A DNA stretch of 64,000 nt from Promineifilum sp. (GTDB lineage: Bacteria; Chloroflexota; Anaerolineae; Promineifilales; Promineifilaceae). The stretch covers positions 1-64,000 of the forward strand of contig JAGOZU010000003.1 of NCBI GenBank assembly GCA_018058545.1, given 5' to 3'. Shown here piece by piece: positions 7,584 to 16,533 of the stretch; within the stretch, counting starts at the first letter, position 1; every line of letters starts with the position of its first letter. Made by a program: the position numbers and the translations under genes. The notes beneath the pieces were generated by a model. That model was not told the origin of the DNA. It saw only the letters and a program-made list of their open reading frames with translations, and made no database searches.

Positions 7584-9566
7584 ATGGAATTCGGCACAAG
7601 AGAAATGCCACCCGTCGGGCGGGAAAGCGAAAGCAAACCACTGACCCATCCCTTGGGCAGCGGGCTGCAATCCGGCACGGTGCTCCAGGGGCGCTACATG
7701 ATCATGGGCGGGCTGGGAGCCGGCGGCTTCAGCTCGGTCTATCGGGCGCGCGACCTGCGATTCCCCTCGGTCACTCGCCTTTGCGCGGTGAAGGAGATGC
7801 ACATCGGCACGGCCGATCCGGAGATGCGCGAACTGACGATCAAGTCGTTTGAGCGCGAGGCCAGCATGCTGGCCATGCTCAACCACCCGGCCATCCCCGA
7901 CATCTTCGACTATTTCACGGACGGCAACCGCAGCTACCTGATCCTGGAGTTCGTCCCCGGCCAGAACCTGCAGCAGTGGCTGGATGAGACGGACGAGTAC
8001 CTCGACGAGCCGAAGGCGCTCGACTGGGCGCTCCAGATCTGCGACGCGCTGGCCTATCTGCACAGCCAGAAACCCCAGCCCATCGTCTTCCGCGACCTGA
8101 AGCCGGGGAACATCATGCTCGACACCGGCTCCGGCCGGGGCGCTCCCATTCGCCTCATCGACTTCGGCATCGCCAAGTTGTTCGAGGTCGGCGAGGACAA
8201 GGGCACGATGATCGGCACGGCCGGTTATACCCCGCCGGAGCAATATCGCGGCGAAGCGACGCCGGCCGCGGATGTCTACGGGTTGGGGGCGACGCTCCAC
8301 CACCTGTTGACGCGGCAAGACCCCCGCCAGGAGACGCCCTTCACCTTCAGCGAGCGGCCGATTCGTGCCGCCAACCCGTCCATCTCCCGCGCCTTCGAGG
8401 CCATCATCATGCGTTGCCTGGCCTACGATCCCAAGGATCGTTACCCCGACGCGATGGCGCTGCGCGAGGCGTTGCTGGTTCTGTCGCAGAGCGGCGTCGA
8501 TGAGGCCGACATCGAGCAACGGCTGGGCCTCACGGATAGCGGCCGTCTCATCGACAGGACGGACGGAGCCAGCGCGCCGGCGGCCTCGCTCAAGGCCGGT
8601 GTTAGCCAGATCAAACCGTTGTGGGTCTTTCGCTGCGAGGATGAGATACGCACCCGCCCGGCCGTGGCCAAGGGCATCGTCTTCGCCGGGGCGTATGACC
8701 ATAACCTCTACGCCCTGACCGCCGACAAGGGCGAATTTCTCTGGAAATATCCCACCGGCGGCGGGATCGGCAGCTCGCCCATCGTCCATGAGGACGCAGT
8801 GCTGATCGGCTCCGCGGATCATTCGCTCTATTCGCTGCAATTGCGCAAGGGGCGGCTCAACTGGCAGTTCAATGCCGAGGGAGCGATCTACTCCACGCCG
8901 GCGGCGCGTTTCGACCATGCCTTCTTCGGGGCTGACGACGGCTTTTTCTATGTCGTCAATCTGATGCGCGGTCACCTATACTGGAAGACCAATGTCTACA
9001 GCCCCGTTCGCTCCACGCCCTACGTCTCCGACGAGATGGTCTATTTCGGCACCGAGGCCGGGCTGATATTGGGGCTGGAAATGTCCGCCGGCAAGCAGAA
9101 ATGGCAGGCCACGGCCAAGCGGGCCGTCACCTCGTCCCCCAAGATAGCCGACGACATCCTCTATGTCGGTTCCTCGGACGGCATGGTGTACGCGATGGAT
9201 GCCGGGTCGGGCTGGCCCATCTGGCGGTTCCAATGTCAGGGGCCGGTCATCTCCACGCCGGTCATCTTCGAAGATACGCTCTATGTCGGTTCGGCCGACG
9301 GCCATCTGTACGCCATCGACACCGCGCGCGGTCGCCGCCTTTGGGCCTATCCGACCAACGGCCAGATAGTCTCCGCGCCGACGATCTGGGGCAACACGGT
9401 CTATTTTGGCTCAACCGACGGCAGCGTATACGGAGTAAGCGCGCGACGCGGCGAGCTTCAATGGCGATTTGACACCGGCAGCCCCATCATCGGCGCGCCA
9501 ACCATCACCAACAACGTCCTCTACATCGGAGCCATCGACCATTGCCTCTACGCCCTGCCGCTATAG
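7584..9566 (+). CDS. Ser/Thr protein kinase with C-terminal PQQ-type beta-propeller
   Basis: 660 residues. Kinase domain at about residues 38-305: glycine loop GGLGAGGFSSV (42-52), Lys70 in CAVK, catalytic loop FRDLKPGN (169-176, D171 and N176), IDFG at 192-195, and TAGYTPPEQ in the activation segment. The usual HRD histidine is Phe, a change seen in active bacterial kinases, so I do not call it inactive. Residues about 345-660 hold roughly seven repeats such as ILYVGSSDGMVYAMD and TLYVGSADGHLYAID, a PQQ/WD-like propeller that would serve as ligand or partner sensor. No membrane segment, so cytoplasmic. First gene of a signalling operon; PP2C follows after 4 bp. Confidence 0.93.
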   Translation: MEFGTREMPPVGRESESKPLTHPLGSGLQSGTVLQGRYMIMGGLGAGGFSSVYRARDLRFPSVTRLCAVKEMHIGTADPEMRELTIKSFEREASMLAMLNHPAIPDIFDYFTDGNRSYLILEFVPGQNLQQWLDETDEYLDEPKALDWALQICDALAYLHSQKPQPIVFRDLKPGNIMLDTGSGRGAPIRLIDFGIAKLFEVGEDKGTMIGTAGYTPPEQYRGEATPAADVYGLGATLHHLLTRQDPRQETPFTFSERPIRAANPSISRAFEAIIMRCLAYDPKDRYPDAMALREALLVLSQSGVDEADIEQRLGLTDSGRLIDRTDGASAPAASLKAGVSQIKPLWVFRCEDEIRTRPAVAKGIVFAGAYDHNLYALTADKGEFLWKYPTGGGIGSSPIVHEDAVLIGSADHSLYSLQLRKGRLNWQFNAEGAIYSTPAARFDHAFFGADDGFFYVVNLMRGHLYWKTNVYSPVRSTPYVSDEMVYFGTEAGLILGLEMSAGKQKWQATAKRAVTSSPKIADDILYVGSSDGMVYAMDAGSGWPIWRFQCQGPVISTPVIFEDTLYVGSADGHLYAIDTARGRRLWAYPTNGQIVSAPTIWGNTVYFGSTDGSVYGVSARRGELQWRFDTGSPIIGAPTITNNVLYIGAIDHCLYALPL

Positions 9567-9570
9567 CGAC

Positions 9571-10374
9571 ATGATGAATATCAACGGCGTCATAGAGATC
9601 GACAGCGGCTTCCGATGCGAGCGGGGCGCGGTGCGCGAGCGCAATGAGGATTCGTGCCTGGCTTTCACGGCCGTCTATGGCGGCCACTTTTCGCTTAATC
9701 CCTTCGGCCTCTACGTCGTCGCCGACGGCATGGGGGGCGAACGCGAGGGCCATGTGGCCAGCAATACCGCCACCCGCGCCTTCGCCGATTTCGTCCTGTC
9801 GGGCCTCTATCTGCCGTTGCTAAGGCAACGGCCGGAGCCACAGGAGAGGAATATACTCGATCTCATCGAGCGAGGTGTTTTTGCCGCCCATGAGGCGGTT
9901 GTCGGCCCTGATTCGGCCGAGCCGGGATCGAACGGTGGCACCACCCTGACCGCGGGATTGGTCTTCGGCCGTCGCCTGTACATCGCCCACGTCGGCGATT
10001 CGCGCGCCTACCTGTACACTGGCGGCCAGCTCCAGTTGCTGACGGAGGATCACTCGCTGGTCAGACGCCTGCAAGAGACCGGCCGGCTCTCGATAGAAGA
10101 CGCGCAGCATTTTCAGTACCGCAACGTCCTGCTGCAGGCATTGGGCCAGAACGGGTCGCTGACGGCCGACACCTTTTCCCTCGACTTGCCCGCCCGGGGC
10201 AAGCTGCTGTTGTGCAGCGACGGCCTGTGCGGCATCCTTTCCCCGGCGCAAATGGCCGGTATCCTCGGCGGCGACGGCCAGGCCCAGGAAATGGCCGACC
10301 GGTTCTATGCCGCGGCGATGAGAGGCGGCGGTTACGATAACATAACCGCCGTGGTCGTTGATATTGCGCTCTAG
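9571..10374 (+). CDS. PP2C-family protein phosphatase
   Basis: 267 residues, from the ATG at 9571, four bases after the kinase stop. The metal-binding motifs of PPM phosphatases are present: VRERNEDS near residues 21-28, VADGMGG at 50-56, HVGDSRAYL, SDGL and the final DNITAVVVDI with the metal-ligand Asp. It should reverse the phosphorylation made by the upstream kinase, dephosphorylating Ser/Thr on the kinase itself and on partners such as the FHA-recognised target. The short gap implies co-translation. Length is typical of a single-domain bacterial phosphatase. Confidence 0.93.
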   Translation: MMNINGVIEIDSGFRCERGAVRERNEDSCLAFTAVYGGHFSLNPFGLYVVADGMGGEREGHVASNTATRAFADFVLSGLYLPLLRQRPEPQERNILDLIERGVFAAHEAVVGPDSAEPGSNGGTTLTAGLVFGRRLYIAHVGDSRAYLYTGGQLQLLTEDHSLVRRLQETGRLSIEDAQHFQYRNVLLQALGQNGSLTADTFSLDLPARGKLLLCSDGLCGILSPAQMAGILGGDGQAQEMADRFYAAAMRGGGYDNITAVVVDIAL

Positions 10375-10439
10375 GCGGCCGTCTCGCGGGCGCCGGCTTC
10401 GTCCCTTTCCGGCCGGCGTTGTTAAACCGGCAGTAAGTC

Positions 10440-11930
10440 ATGGATCAGAAACCAATCGACCTTTATACCGTCCTCGGCATCGACCGCGCCGCCCGGCCGG
10501 AGGAGATCGAGGCGGCCTTCGCGGCATGGAAGGCGCGCAGCGGTTCGTCCGGGCCGATCGATGACGAGGCATGGCAGCGCGTCCGGTATGCCTACGAGGT
10601 CTTGATCAGCCCGCAACGCCGAAAAACCTATGATTCGCTGGTTGTCGAGGCCGCCGGTCCGGCGCTGGAACTCGACATAACCTTGAGCGCCGAGAGCATC
10701 CCTCTGCTGGACACGCCCCATATCCTGTACGCCCTGCTGACGCTGCGGCCGCGGGACGATCGACCTGCTATAAGCGGAGATCCCCGGCCGCTTAACCTCG
10801 GTCTGGTGATTGATCGTTCCACATCGATGCGTGGCGAGCGACTGGAGAAGGTGACGGCGGCCGTCGGGCTGCTGCTCGACAAGCTGGGGCCGGGAGACAG
10901 GCTGTCGCTGGTCAGCTTTAGCGATCGGGCCGAGGTCGTTTTGCCCGCGGCGACGATCGACACGGCCGCCGCCAGTCCCGATCCGGAGACGGCCGCGGCC
11001 TGGCGCGACCCCCGACGGCGAATTGAGGCCATCGTCGCCTCCGGCGGCACCGAGATTTATCAGGGGCTGCAAGCCGGGCTGGCTCAGGTGGCGCGACCGG
11101 CAGCCAAGGGGCATATCAGCCATCTCATCCTGCTGACCGACGGCCATACCTATGGCGACGCGGCCGATTGCCTGCGCCTGGCCGAGAAAGCGGCAACTCA
11201 CGGGGTTGGCATCACCGCCTTTGGCCTGGGCGCGGATTGGAATGATGCCTTTCTGGATGCGCTGGTGGCCTCGTCCGGGGGCCAATCGCACTATATCGAA
11301 CGGCCTGATGATGTGTTGGCTCATCTCGAAAGCCGGTTGCAAGGGCTGGGGGCCATCCACGCCCGTAACCTTGCCCTGGCCCAATCGTGGCCGGATTCAT
11401 TCACATTGCGCAGCGCCTTCAAGCTGGCGCCGTCTCCCCAGCCCTTGCCCTCTGATTCGCGCCCCGTCCCGATGGGCGATCTGGAAGGGCGGTCGCCGAT
11501 GACTGTGCTGCTGGAGTTCCTGGTGGCCCCGCAGTCCGTTGCGGCGCGGTTTCGCCTGCCGTTCGAAGTCCGGTTTACGGCGGCCAACGGGATCGCCCAG
11601 TTGGCGGAGCGCAGCGCGCGGCTGGTCGCCGGCGACGTTCAAGCCGGCGATGGCCAAACCCCACAGGCGATCATCGAGGCGGCGCGATGGCTCAACCTCT
11701 ATCGGATGCAGGACAAGGCCTGGGAGGAGGCCCAATTGGGCAAACCGGACACGGCCGCGGCGCGCATGCGGAAGCTGACCGACCGCTATATGGAGACGGG
11801 CGATCTGCGGCTGGCGCGGCAAGCCCAACTGGAAGCGCAGCAACTGGCTCAACAGGGCGCGATGTCGCCCGAAGGCCGCAAGGTGCTGAAATACGGGACG
11901 CGCTCCCTGATGAGGTCGGACAAGTCATGA
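10440..11930 (+). CDS. J-like domain plus von Willebrand factor A domain protein
   Basis: 496 residues. The N-terminus (residues 6-68, DLYTVLGIDRAARPEEIEAA ... ISPQRRKTYDSL) has the helix pattern of a DnaJ J-domain. The HPD tripeptide that stimulates DnaK ATPase is absent: the loop reads AWKARSGSSG. Residues about 118-310 are a VWA domain with an intact metal site: DRSTSM (D125, S127, S129), the Thr of GGTEIYQGL and the LLTDGHTYGD Asp. The C-terminal 180 residues are a beta region followed by helices rich in Arg/Gln. This is likely a metal-dependent protein-protein scaffold in the kinase/phosphatase pathway. It overlaps the FHA gene as ATGA. Confidence 0.88.
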   Translation: MDQKPIDLYTVLGIDRAARPEEIEAAFAAWKARSGSSGPIDDEAWQRVRYAYEVLISPQRRKTYDSLVVEAAGPALELDITLSAESIPLLDTPHILYALLTLRPRDDRPAISGDPRPLNLGLVIDRSTSMRGERLEKVTAAVGLLLDKLGPGDRLSLVSFSDRAEVVLPAATIDTAAASPDPETAAAWRDPRRRIEAIVASGGTEIYQGLQAGLAQVARPAAKGHISHLILLTDGHTYGDAADCLRLAEKAATHGVGITAFGLGADWNDAFLDALVASSGGQSHYIERPDDVLAHLESRLQGLGAIHARNLALAQSWPDSFTLRSAFKLAPSPQPLPSDSRPVPMGDLEGRSPMTVLLEFLVAPQSVAARFRLPFEVRFTAANGIAQLAERSARLVAGDVQAGDGQTPQAIIEAARWLNLYRMQDKAWEEAQLGKPDTAAARMRKLTDRYMETGDLRLARQAQLEAQQLAQQGAMSPEGRKVLKYGTRSLMRSDKS

Positions 11931-12484
11931 TAGCCTGCCCTGAATGTGGCGCGCAGCACTATCCGGGGACGTTATTTTGTGACGGCTGCGGCGCGGCCGT
12001 CCACCCGGAAGCGCGGGCCTATCTGGAGGCGAGCCAGGCGGCCGCCGGCCGCCAATCGTCCATCAGGAAGATTAGCACGAGCCATCGGGAATCATCGCCC
12101 GCCTCAACCGAAGCGACGGGCGGAGATGCCCCAACGCCACCGGCCACGCCGCCGTCGCCGCCGACCTTGCGCGTTCGGGTCATCCAATATGAGTCCGACC
12201 TGATCCTGCGCGGGACGCAGTTCAACATCGGCCGGACCGATCCTTTCTCGGACTTTGTGCCCGAGTTTGACGTGACCCGTTTTGAAGGCCAGGAGCGGGG
12301 TGTCTCGCGCCGGCACGCGACCATCCGGTGGGACGGTGGCGGGTTCGTCATCCGCGACAATGACAGCAGCAACGGCACGTGGCTCAACGGCGAGCGGCTG
12401 GAGCCGGGACGCGAGTACCCGTTGCCGGCTACGGCGGGCGTTCGCTTCGGGGGTTTACTGGTACAACTCACGATCGCGGATTAA
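11927..12484 (+). CDS. zinc-ribbon and FHA-domain protein
   Basis: 185 residues from the ATG that overlaps the VWA stop. Residues 4-23 form a zinc ribbon (CPEC ... FCDGCG). A Ser/Thr/Pro-rich linker follows at about residues 40-80 (SSPASTEATGGDAP, PTPPATPPSPPTL), a plausible phosphorylation target. The C-terminal FHA domain has the conserved FNIGRTDPFSDF, GVSRRHATI and DSSNGTWLNGERL motifs. FHA domains bind phosphothreonine peptides, so this is the natural reader of the kinase's output. The zinc ribbon may contact the VWA protein or nucleic acid. Length and layout resemble FHA adaptors in other bacterial kinase-VWA clusters. Confidence 0.9.
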   Translation: MIACPECGAQHYPGTLFCDGCGAAVHPEARAYLEASQAAAGRQSSIRKISTSHRESSPASTEATGGDAPTPPATPPSPPTLRVRVIQYESDLILRGTQFNIGRTDPFSDFVPEFDVTRFEGQERGVSRRHATIRWDGGGFVIRDNDSSNGTWLNGERLEPGREYPLPATAGVRFGGLLVQLTIAD

Positions 12485-12607
12485 ACTACAGGGAGAAAGC
12501 GTCCGCAGCTTTCACAGACTTTCAGAGTATCGGCAGATGCGGCAAGCGGACGGGTGTTTAGAGATGAGTCTCCGGCTCGCAACCTGCGTCCCGCGCAAGA
12601 GATAGCT

Positions 12608-12853
12608 ATGATGCGACTATCGGCCGTCATTCAATTGATAGGCGAGGACCCGATCATCGGGGAGCTGGAAGGCATGCCCGATCCGGCCTCGCAGTTCGTC
12701 ACTGTTTACGCGCCGCGCCGCCGCGACGGCCGCGCCGTGGGATACCTTGACGGCAATGCCGAGAAGGTCCTCTTCGCCTGGCATCGCATCAGCCATATCC
12801 AGATCTTGCCGGCCGTCGATCTGGAGAAAGCCATCGGCTTCGTGCGAGAATAG
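12608..12853 (+). CDS. small conserved-looking protein of unknown function
   Basis: 81 residues from the ATG at 12608 (preceded by AAGAGATAGCT, a modest ribosome binding site). The frame is open back to 12554, but that extension has no start signal. It looks like a compact beta-rich domain: [20 protein letters not shown], then [20 protein letters not shown], then [17 protein letters not shown] do not recognise the family. It sits 7 bp before the OmpR-type regulator and reads in the same direction, so it is probably co-transcribed with it. The 123 bp between the FHA gene and this gene hold nothing I can name. Confidence 0.6.
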
Positions 12854-12860
12854 GAATATC

Positions 12861-13592
12861 ATGGTCGAAAAAGTCCCCGAAAACCTGGAACCAACCGCCC
12901 CGCAGATCGTGCTGATCGTCGATGACGAATTGCGCATGCGCCGTTTCATCCGCATGAACCTGGAGCTGGAGGGCTATCAGGTCATCGAGGCCGAGAACGG
13001 CATCCAGGCTCTGGATCGCGTGCGCCAGTTCACCCCCGATCTGGTGATCATGGATGTGATGATGCCGGAACTGGACGGCTTCGAGACCCTGAAGATGCTG
13101 CGAGAGATATCCACCGTGCCGGTCATTTTGCTGACCGTTCGCAGCGATGAGGAGGATATCACCCGCGGGTTGGGGCTGGGGGCCGACGACTACATCACCA
13201 AGCCGTTTAGCCCGCGCGTGCTGACCAGCCGGGCGGGGGCTGTGCTGCGACGGGCGCAATGGCCCGCGCCACCGCCACGCACGGTTCTGAAGATCGATGA
13301 TCGACTGTCGATCGATTTCAATCGTCATCAGGTCATCGTCAACGGCGAGCGAATCGACCTGCGGCCGACGGAGTATCGCCTGCTGAATCACCTCATCCAG
13401 AACGCCGGGTGGGTCGTGCCCCATGACACGCTGCTGGCCAAAGTGTGGGGATATGAGTACCGCGATGAGACCCATTACCTGCGCCTCTACATCAACTATC
13501 TTCGCAAGAAAATCGAGGAAGATCCGGCCAATCCCAAATATATTCTGACGGAGCGCGGCGTCGGCTATCGCTTTGTCGATTTCAGGAAATAG
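12861..13592 (+). CDS. OmpR/PhoB-family response regulator (orphan)
   Basis: 243 residues from the ATG at 12861; the frame extends to 12747 only by overlapping the small gene before it. Receiver domain at residues 16-130 with the acidic pair D21-D22, phospho-acceptor D65 in IMDVMMP, T92 and K114 (YITKPF). The C-terminal winged helix (about residues 145-240) has the [11 protein letters not shown] and GVGYRF segments of OmpR/PhoB DNA-binding domains. No histidine kinase is adjacent; the neighbours are a Ser/Thr kinase system. It may be paired with a distant kinase or be modified by the Ser/Thr kinase. It presumably regulates transcription in the cytoplasm. Confidence 0.92.
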
Positions 13593-13677: not shown

Positions 13678-13758
13678 GAGGGGATATACCTATAGATATT
13701 GCTACCTGCCCGTCCCACTCGGGCATCTTTAGGCGGTCTGGTGGGTATCCATTTTCAT

Positions 13759-16014
13759 ATGATCGAGAGCGAACCCTTAATTGCCGACGCCGAGCGATTA
13801 TTTACGCTTATTGATGATTATTTAAGTACGACCGATCGCCTTCAGGTCATGAAAGCGTTCGAATTCGCTCGCCGGGAACATGGCGTCCAACGCCGGAAGT
13901 CCGGCGAGCTTTTTTTTAATCACCCGTTGGAGGTGGCCATCTACCTGGCGGAATACAGGCTGGACGCGGAGGCTCTCTCGGCCGCCCTCCTGCACGATAT
14001 CGCCGAGGACACGCTTATACCCATTGAGCGAATCAGCGATGAATTCGGCCCGCAAGTGGCCAAACTGGTGGATGGCGTCACCAAGTTGAAGGAAGTGACG
14101 CGCGGTGTGGCCCAGGGGAGCCGCAGATTGTCGCCGGAGGAGATTCAGCAGGCGACGCTGCAAAAGCTGCTCAAAGCCATGACGGCCGACGTGCGCACGG
14201 TCATCATCAAGCTCTTCGACCGCCTGCACAATATGCGCACCATCCACGCCTTGCCGCCCCACAGGCAGAAAGCCAAGGCGGAAGAGACCCTGTCGGTCTT
14301 TGCGCCACTGGCCTACCGGCTGGGCATGTGGGTCGTGAAGAGTGAGCTGGAGAGCCTGTCGCTAAACGTCATCAATCCCCACGCCTACGAAACCATCCAT
14401 GCCGAGCTGGAGCGACTTCACCGGGCGCAACAGCCGCTCTTCGAGATCGTTCGGCGGCAGATCATAGACTGTCTGACGGTCAACGGCCTGCCGGTTCATG
14501 ACGTCAAAATGGCTCCCGAGAACATCTACACCGTCTATAAGGACCTGGAAAGGCAAGACGCAAGCTATCGGGATATGGACCGGATGTTGCGCATCACCGT
14601 TCTGCTGGAGGACAGGATCCACTGCTACACGGCTCTGGGTCATATCCACCATCTGTGGTCGGTCGTGCCCAACCGTTTTGATGATTACATCTCCGTCGGC
14701 CGCGAAAACCTCTACCAATCCCTCCACACCACCCTCGTCCATTCCGAAGGCCAACCCCTGAAAGTCCGATTGCGCACAGTCGATATGGAGCGCATCGCCC
14801 AGATCGGCGTGCTGGCCAAGTGGTACTATTCGGGGACTCCGCTGTGGTCGGTCGGCTTGGCCGAGCGGATCGATGAGTTCTTCGCCAGCATATCCAAGAG
14901 CATCAATGTCGCGCCACAGGACGCCATGCTGGCCGTGCGCAGTGCGATGACCGACGTGCTGGGCGAGCAGATCCGCGTCTACTCCAAGGACGGAGAGCCG
15001 TTTGAACTGCCGCGCGGCAGCACGCCCCTTGATTTTGCCTATCAAATCCACACTGAATTGGGCAATCGCTGTCGCGACGTGCTGGTTAATGAATTGCAGT
15101 TTCCATTGAACAAGCCGCTGAAAGACGGCGATCAGGTGCGCATCATCAATGATCCGCGCGCCCAACCGAGGCGGGCCTGGCTGGATGAAGACCTGGGCTA
15201 TCTCACGACGACCTATGCCCGGTTTTATGCCCGCCGTTGGTTCCGCAGACTGAGCGATCCGGAGGCGATCCGGCAGGGACACGAGATTCTCCTGCGCGAA
15301 CTGGAGATGCTGGGGCTGCCCCAGCTGGCGCATGAGGATATCGCCGAGCTGTTCGGCTACGATGGCGCAACGGAACTGTATTACAACATCGGGCGGGCTG
15401 AATTGCTGCCGACGGTGCTCTCGACGCGCATCATGGCCGAGCGGTGGGCCGACGGCCGCTGCCTGCCGCTGGGCAATGCTGTCGCCGCGGCTGACGGCTC
15501 GACGTATGTCATTACCAACGCCGGCAAGAACAAACTGCACCTGTGCGGCACCTGTGCCCCGCGGCCGCGCGACGCGATCGTCGGGTTCCTGCGGCAGGAC
15601 GGCACCCTCACGGTCCATCGCGAGGGTTGTCGCACGCTCAATGCCGCCCGTGGCCGCCCCGAAGTCGACTCGCGACTGCTCAAGCTGGGCTGGGGCGAGA
15701 CGGCGCCGCGGGAGATGCGGATCGTCCCGCTCTACGTTGATGTCTACGATCGGTCGGGTCTGTTGCATGAGATGACCCAACTGATGGTGGAGAAGGACAT
15801 CAATATCCGCAATATCTGCACCATCCCCAACAAGAAAGACGGGGAACTGGGGATCGCTATGGAGCTTGAAGTGATTGGCCCCCGTCAATTGGTGCGCATC
15901 CTGCATCAGATCGAGGCCCTGGTGAACGTTAAATCCGTGCGCTGCATGGCCGAAGGAACCAGGTACCCGGCCATGATGGGCAAGAATTCATCCGTGTTTT
16001 ATAAGCCGGAATAA
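13759..16014 (+). CDS. RelA/SpoT-homologue, probably a (p)ppGpp hydrolase
   Basis: 751 residues from the ATG at 13759 (MIESEPL); GTG at 13741 is an alternative. Domain order is HD hydrolase (about 30-190), synthetase (240-360), TGS (about 405-470) and ACT at the C-terminus (about 655-740). The hydrolase site is complete: H55, H79-D80 (LLHDIAED) and D154 in KLFDRLHNMR. The synthetase half is altered. The EIQIRT motif reads LKVRLRT, with Lys335 at the catalytic Glu. NGYQSLH reads ENLYQSLH, KDYI reads DDYI, and the conserved Asp before the central strand aligns with Arg275. Alarmone breakdown is therefore likely, synthesis unlikely. Confidence 0.9.
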   Translation: MIESEPLIADAERLFTLIDDYLSTTDRLQVMKAFEFARREHGVQRRKSGELFFNHPLEVAIYLAEYRLDAEALSAALLHDIAEDTLIPIERISDEFGPQVAKLVDGVTKLKEVTRGVAQGSRRLSPEEIQQATLQKLLKAMTADVRTVIIKLFDRLHNMRTIHALPPHRQKAKAEETLSVFAPLAYRLGMWVVKSELESLSLNVINPHAYETIHAELERLHRAQQPLFEIVRRQIIDCLTVNGLPVHDVKMAPENIYTVYKDLERQDASYRDMDRMLRITVLLEDRIHCYTALGHIHHLWSVVPNRFDDYISVGRENLYQSLHTTLVHSEGQPLKVRLRTVDMERIAQIGVLAKWYYSGTPLWSVGLAERIDEFFASISKSINVAPQDAMLAVRSAMTDVLGEQIRVYSKDGEPFELPRGSTPLDFAYQIHTELGNRCRDVLVNELQFPLNKPLKDGDQVRIINDPRAQPRRAWLDEDLGYLTTTYARFYARRWFRRLSDPEAIRQGHEILLRELEMLGLPQLAHEDIAELFGYDGATELYYNIGRAELLPTVLSTRIMAERWADGRCLPLGNAVAAADGSTYVITNAGKNKLHLCGTCAPRPRDAIVGFLRQDGTLTVHREGCRTLNAARGRPEVDSRLLKLGWGETAPREMRIVPLYVDVYDRSGLLHEMTQLMVEKDINIRNICTIPNKKDGELGIAMELEVIGPRQLVRILHQIEALVNVKSVRCMAEGTRYPAMMGKNSSVFYKPE

Positions 16015-16239: not shown

Positions 16240-16533
16240 ATGTTGAAAAAGAAGTACATCAAGACGAAAGACGAGTATGAAGTGACCTTCGAGCTGCCGA
16301 CCGAGGCGGGCGAGGTTACGCTGGTTTGCGAAGCCAACGGCTGGGAGCCGGTGGCGATGAAGAAGGGCAAGGGCAAGTTTGCGGCCAAGCTGCGTCTGCC
16401 GGCCAACGGCAGCTATCAGTATCGCTATCTGGTCGACAACTCCGTGTGGGTCAATGACGAGGCGGCCGACAGCTACGTCCCCAACGAGCACGGCACGACC
16501 AACGGCGTCGTCGAGACTTACAGCGTTAACTAA
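16240..16533 (+). CDS. small stand-alone CBM48-like (isoamylase N-terminal / AMPK-type) domain protein
   Basis: 97 residues, preceded by AAGAGGAGATTTTGCG, a strong ribosome binding site. The sequence is one immunoglobulin-like beta domain. It has TFELPTEAGEVTLVCEANGW, then EPVAMKKGKGKFAAKLRLPA, then GSYQYRYLVDNSVWVNDEAADSY. The pattern ('G.W....M......F...L.L..G.Y.YRY.VDG..W..D') is that of glycogen-binding CBM48/early-set domains. There is no catalytic part. It probably binds alpha-glucan or acts as an abundant accessory protein; the strong promoter suggests high expression. The cupin follows after 14 bp. Confidence 0.82.
   Translation: MLKKKYIKTKDEYEVTFELPTEAGEVTLVCEANGWEPVAMKKGKGKFAAKLRLPANGSYQYRYLVDNSVWVNDEAADSYVPNEHGTTNGVVETYSVN

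Follow-up and report, generated by a model that had tools for sequence, protein, structure and literature searches.

Reciprocally degenerate domains in two long RSH proteins predict a division of (p)ppGpp synthesis and hydrolysis in an Anaerolineae order

The alarmone (p)ppGpp signals starvation, and a cell in which a synthetase is active needs a hydrolase as well. The specialisation of long RSH proteins into RelA and SpoT is usually presented as a matter of Proteobacteria, and some members of that group were the only known cases of a complete split. In the sections of Atkinson 2011 (PMC3153485) on which we draw, the Moraxellaceae are named as the complete-split case, and the Chloroflexi are listed with Rel[HS], small hydrolases in some of them and no long-RSH duplicates. 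The Moraxellaceae split is described by Tamman 2022 (PMC9974481) for A. baumannii, where SpoT[Hs], a hydrolase-only long RSH that retains a dead synthetase domain, is accompanied by the synthetase-only RelA[hS]. In E. coli, RelA, a paralogue whose HD domain is degenerate, serves as synthetase only and stands alongside the hydrolase SpoT[HS], which according to the same paper retains weak synthetase activity. In Bacteroidetes (Rel and RshB of P. gingivalis and B. thetaiotaomicron), a lineage-specific long-RSH duplication likewise includes one synthetase-only copy, but the second copy is described with both activities (PMC6994654, PMC3153485), and so this split is one-sided as these sources present it.

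The locus reported here lies in a 64,000-nucleotide stretch of a Promineifilum sp. genome, which we call the window (contig C103 of a 3.6 Mb genome in 185 contigs, 97.93% complete). Its host belongs to a group of uncultured filamentous bacteria. The features of the locus are collected in Table 1; an alternative upstream TTG start at 13699 would give a product of 771 aa. Pfam recognised HD_4, RelA_SpoT (71.7 bits), TGS and ACT_4 above their cut-offs, in agreement with the original prediction of a long RSH, and together with the zinc-finger Cys/His residues these domains give the long-RSH order HD-SYNTH-TGS-ZFD-ACT. NCBIfam TIGR00691 (spoT_relA) scored 497.8 bits, slightly below its cut-off of 499.2, and the closest named relatives were Promineifilum sp. 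BROCD045, at 80% identity, and Anaerolineae bacterium CHL10, at 70%.

Table 1. Features of the window at and around the RSH gene
Feature	Position	Strand	Remarks
Ser/Thr kinase with beta-propeller repeats, PP2C phosphatase, DnaJ-vWA and FHA/zinc-ribbon proteins	7584..12484		Upstream of the response regulator
Small protein adjoining the response regulator	12602..12850		Without Pfam match
OmpR-family response regulator, conserved upstream neighbour	12861..13592	+	Pfam Response_reg and Trans_reg_C
Long RSH, B-type, predicted hydrolase-only	13759..16014	+	ATG at 13759, stop at 16014; 751 aa; Pfam, NCBIfam, residue alignment
HD hydrolase domain, residues 33-191	13855..14331	+	H55, H79, D80, E83, D84, D154, R155, N158 intact
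Pseudo-synthetase domain, residues 255-358	14521..14832	+	ATP/Mg residues gone; N317, Y319, H323 (guanine pocket) kept
TGS domain, residues 405-463	14971..15147	+	H431 retained
Zinc-finger segment, residues 596-624	15544..15630	+	CxxC replaces the usual CC
ACT/RRM domain, residues 655-728	15721..15942	+	Pfam
Small AMPK-type glycogen-binding-domain protein	16240..16533		Directly downstream of the RSH

In an AlphaFold model of the protein (mean pLDDT 80.4, pTM 0.62), the catalytic half matched three known structures: B. subtilis Rel 8acu with 335 residues aligned (Z 38.5, rmsd 1.8), S. aureus Rel 7oiw with 324 (Z 38.1, rmsd 2.0) and A. baumannii SpoT 7qpr with 418 (Z 32.5, rmsd 7.2). These matches establish the long-RSH fold of the catalytic half and do not speak to activity. 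Full-length Foldseek TMq values of 0.41-0.44 against full-length RelA/SpoT did not tell the compact and elongated states apart, and VIA-align of the model preferred neither state decisively.

Alignment to B. subtilis Rel, whose numbering is used below unless stated otherwise, placed H55, H79, D80 and D154 of the window protein, all previously read as intact, at the metal ligands H53, H77, D78 and D144. On the synthetase side it upheld the two catalytic losses already named, Lys335 falling at E324 (the Glu of EIQIRT) and Arg275 at the conserved D264. Two further losses in the original prediction, of the Gly of NGYQSLH and the Lys of KDYI, are present but are not diagnostic of a dead synthetase, since B. 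subtilis Rel itself reads NMYQSLH, and DDYI is found in E. coli RelA and in all of the 51 partner proteins and 40 outgroup Rels introduced below. Stronger losses had gone unlisted (R252A, K254E, K262D, R280T and Q337R in window numbering); judged by alignment, the decisive ones are at R241, K243, K251, D264, R269, E324 and Q326. R241 and R269 are described as sandwiching the adenine, Y308 as stacking the guanine, and D264 and E323/324 as catalytic (PMC7983052).

The proposal that (p)ppGpp is made by another protein had come with the suggestion to look for a second RSH in the genome, and the search supports it: a second long RSH with intact synthetase residues is encoded on contig C148. The genome holds exactly three proteins with a RelA_SpoT domain (the window protein and one each on contigs C148 and C151), and only the first two of them match HD_4. 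The C148 protein, a long RSH of 760 aa and the best RelA_SpoT match in the genome, has every synthetase residue; its hydrolase residues E81, D82, K141, R145, N148 and T151 are replaced, with HDIFLP where HDxxED is expected and MVDSLQDLR where LADRLHNMR is expected. Because of this inventory and these residue states, synthesis in this genome is predicted to fall to the C148 protein alone and hydrolysis to the window protein alone, and an annotation calling both copies 'bifunctional' would be wrong here.

The third protein (C151; L034:2726-6304) is an RSH-like protein of 1193 aa that keeps the TGS domain and carries a C-terminal AAA/STAND-like ATPase. Pfam recognises no HD domain in it, its synthetase motif is degenerate (Glu to Arg, by eye), and the synthetase of this fusion looks dead. 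A single close orthologue was found, in G001 (41% identity across 56-1192), and RSH-like parts are also present in frames of ~1100 aa in G021, G041, G034, G028, G048, G040, G032, G042, G051 and G088.

We searched 98 genomes, the window's own and its relatives, and extracted 53 orthologues of the window protein (itself included; hereafter B), 51 orthologues of the C148 protein (hereafter A) and, as an outgroup, 40 Rels from the remainder of the class. The order in question, an Anaerolineae order of the Chloroflexota comprising Promineifilum and relatives, is represented by 56 genomes (G000-G055). B is present in 54 of these (the 53 extracted and one, in G035, whose gene is split between two contigs) and A in 53 (the 51 extracted and two partial ones, in G029 and G039); among the same 56 genomes, B was not found in G016 (94% complete) or G055, nor A in G010, G017 or G028. 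The residue counts leave out the split B, the partial A proteins, a second, 504-aa A-like frame in G044 (C68) and L112 (G073:C79, no match); L111 was placed in none of the three groups, and truncated rows (e.g. L116, L141 and L157) were retained with their absent residues as gaps. G061 and G063 gave no match in the relatives search. When 296 genomes of the class were searched with the window protein, matches above 500 bits were counted by eye in 21 of 22 order genomes and in 0 of 274 others, such a score not amounting to a classification (the B-like L111 scores 349.5).

Strict scoring of seven hydrolase (H) and eight synthetase (S) residues gave H7/7 in 52/53 B proteins, the other one being truncated, and at most S2/8 in 53/53. 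All 51 A proteins scored S8/8 and none above H6/7, a value reached by one sequence, and 38 of the 40 outgroup Rels had both H7/7 and S8/8, the other two being truncated with gaps in the hydrolase part. The residue pattern of the window protein is thus not a matter of chance, since the same state recurs in 53 orthologues, one truncated N-terminus aside. On the hydrolase side of B, H53, H77, D78, E81 and D82 are found in 52/53 (one truncated) and D144, R145, N148, K141 and T151 in 53/53; on its synthetase side, R241, K243, H244, K251, R269, E324 and H343 are found in 0/53, D264 in 4/53, and K304 and Q326 in 1/53 each, while N306, Y308, H312, T313, R328 and M332 are kept in 53/53. A retains R241, K243, H244, S247, K251, D264, R269, K304, N306, Y308, H312, E324, Q326 and R328 in 51/51, and of its hydrolase residues E81 remains in 6/51, D82 and R145 in 3/51 each, N148 in 2/51, T151 in 1/51 and K141 in 0/51. 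The metal ligands are mostly retained in A (H53 47/51, H77 39/51, D78 45/51, D144 42/51), although the A proteins of family f2 have lost metal ligands as well. A-type proteins (e.g. L035) also have an insert following D264, the segment having a median of 39 aa vs 21 in B and the outgroup Rels.

The rates of change were compared over the same 1128 genome pairs, from 48 genomes carrying both proteins. Mean identity of the HD domain was 0.46 in A vs 0.63 in B (outgroup 0.61), and that of the SYNTH domain 0.52 in B vs 0.64 in A (outgroup 0.67), and so relaxation in each copy falls on the domain that lost its catalytic residues. B was also the less conserved copy in TGS (0.57 vs 0.71) and in the remaining C-terminal part (0.46 vs 0.54); of the four regions examined in A, HD had diverged the most. 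Shorter flexible loops are predicted for hydrolase-only forms in Tamman 2022 (PMC9974481). We sought shortened alpha6-alpha7 and Core loops in B and found neither: the alpha6-alpha7 medians were 34 in A, 33 in B and 32 in the outgroup and the Core medians 47, 48 and 47, giving no SpoT[Hs] loop-length signature in B.

From the residue states, the inventory, the order-wide conservation, the reciprocal domain rates and a conserved neighbour described below, we infer the enzymatic activities and consider it very probable that the (p)ppGpp system is split between two proteins here, the window gene coding for the hydrolase and its partner A for the synthetase. Two long RSHs of Anaerolineae origin would have specialised oppositely within one Anaerolineae order. 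A, with hydrolase residues lost and synthetase kept, would make (p)ppGpp in a RelA-like manner; B, whose synthetase has lost its ATP site and its catalytic residues while the hydrolase is kept, like the hydrolase-only SpoT of Moraxellaceae, would remove the (p)ppGpp that A produces. B thus combines the intact hydrolase residues and the lost synthetase catalytic residues of a SpoT[Hs] type, and the RelA-type combination of intact synthetase and degenerate HD is found in 51/51 A proteins.

It is unlikely that the split is one-sided, with A still a bifunctional Rel, though weak as a hydrolase, and B no more than an additional hydrolase. Since most A proteins retain the metal ligands, residual hydrolysis by A may occur, and the A sequence with H6/7 points the same way; however, 45, 48, 48 and 49 of the 51 A proteins have lost E81, D82, R145 and N148, respectively, the f2 proteins have lost metal ligands too, and the low conservation of HD within A also speaks against this reading. 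In A. baumannii SpoT, moreover, E82, D83, N147 and Y51 are each described as required, and single substitution of the first three, the equivalents of E81, D82 and N148, as abolishing hydrolysis (PMC9974481).

Quite unlikely, too, is that B is inactive in both of its domains, or that its altered hydrolase acts on a different substrate, such as another 3'-phosphorylated nucleotide, with (p)ppGpp removed by something else. The window protein has Phe at Y50, within the HD domain, as do all B sequences readable there (51/51), and A143F is present in 50/53, both next to catalytic residues; replacing the corresponding Tyr by Ala inactivates the hydrolase of A. baumannii SpoT (PMC9974481), which makes Y50F a caveat for hydrolase activity in B. 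HD domains of the same fold also include human MESH1, solved with NADPH according to its structure title. Nevertheless, the metal ligands and E81, D82, K141, R145, N148 and T151 of B are invariant where present, Phe at position 50 is seen in other long RSHs (3/38 readable outgroup Rels; 18/69 readable long RSHs, a set including some A-type proteins), and the window's genome is without another HD_4 hydrolase; a hydrolase is required wherever a synthetase is active.

Acquisition of A and B by horizontal transfer from proteobacterial RelA and SpoT, suggested by the identical functional split, is very unlikely: in the full-length tree both lie apart from the sampled proteobacterial sequences (a sample without Moraxellaceae, in which RelA and SpoT are not individually labelled), which gives no sign that B descends from a proteobacterial SpoT. 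In that tree A nests among Anaerolineae Rels, near L114 and L129, and B stands alone, its best matches being Anaerolineae Rels. There is a negligible chance that errors of sequencing, assembly or annotation gave rise to B, or that it is a pseudogene in decay; conservation refutes both: although most genomes are draft assemblies, the 53 frames come from different genomes and share replacements (E324K, Q326R), and B, its reading frames being open, is therefore not a pseudogene.

A and B were thus most likely both derived within Anaerolineae. When other phyla were included in the C-terminal tree, B formed one clade (100/99) and A was split in two, both falling among Anaerolineae sequences with weak deep support; without other phyla, A was one clade (99/96). 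A duplication on the stem of the order was considered and not retained as a firm origin: A and B as a single clade were not rejected in the C-terminal tree with other phyla (p-AU 0.588) but were rejected in the full-length tree (p 0.017). The full-length tree includes the two degenerate domains, and opposite constraints on the catalytic domains could have caused that rejection.

Another family of the class holds a further protein of this kind. L111 (G057:C159) is a second long RSH with an intact hydrolase and a dead synthetase, including E324K, and the same genome carries an intact bifunctional Rel, L114. In the C-terminal tree L111 joins B (97/81); its zinc finger is the ordinary CC, unlike that of B. 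A stepwise intermediate in G057 was considered, and set aside given this zinc finger, a family represented by this one genome and the rpoB tree, in which the order's neighbour is G074 and not G057; a clade of G057 and the order was not rejected (p 0.0865), and the tree holds one probably wrong row (L288, taken by the longest-frame rule, with a very long branch). L111 may represent an intermediate state, a transferred gene or an independent second case.

In the dead domain of B the ATP half of the pocket is lost and the guanine half (N306, Y308, H312) is kept throughout, and some of the replacements are conserved in their turn: E324K is found in 52/53, Q326R in 50/53 and K304R in 49/53. Free decay would not produce such a pattern. 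The catalytic D264 has often become Arg or Lys (32/53). In A. baumannii SpoT the guanine-stacking Tyr is described as replaced by Asn and GDP as not bound (PMC9974481), whereas B keeps the Tyr in 53/53. For these reasons we tentatively suggest that the guanine pocket of the pseudo-synthetase can still accommodate GDP/GTP or (p)ppGpp, and that such binding tunes the hydrolase. Similarly tentative is the wider idea of a guanine-nucleotide sensor in an eraser that, given also its CxxC zinc finger and the response regulator linked to it, would be run by nucleotides and two-component signalling, not by ribosomes.

The zinc finger of B is CxxC in 53/53 and CC in none, whereas CC is found in 49/51 A proteins and 39/40 outgroup Rels. 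Directly upstream of B, on the same strand, an OmpR-family response regulator (80-95% identical) occurs in 28 of the 29 loci with at least 900 bp of upstream sequence; none was seen in two f2 B loci with ~400 bp upstream, a third (L057) having zero upstream sequence, and none was found beside A or the outgroup Rels, where most stretches had only ~400 bp of flank. The small protein adjoining the regulator has tblastn matches in 28 B loci and the glycogen-binding-domain protein matches in 18; FHA-like matches lie near other B genes also.

B therefore differs from A. baumannii SpoT[Hs] in phylum, in its CxxC zinc finger and in lacking loop shortening, and from E. coli SpoT in holding at most two of eight scored synthetase residues. 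It shares domain order and origin with other Anaerolineae Rel[HS], which differ in having both sites intact in 38/38 complete outgroup sequences. No published report of this split in Chloroflexota was found in the literature searched, which left preprints and most subscription papers outside its scope. The sequences describe a predicted complete and reciprocal RelA/SpoT-like split outside Proteobacteria, apparently independent of the known case. Such an order-wide split in a second phylum, with intact bifunctional relatives at hand, would make RSH specialisation comparable across independent cases, and offers a natural test of why a dead synthetase domain is retained.
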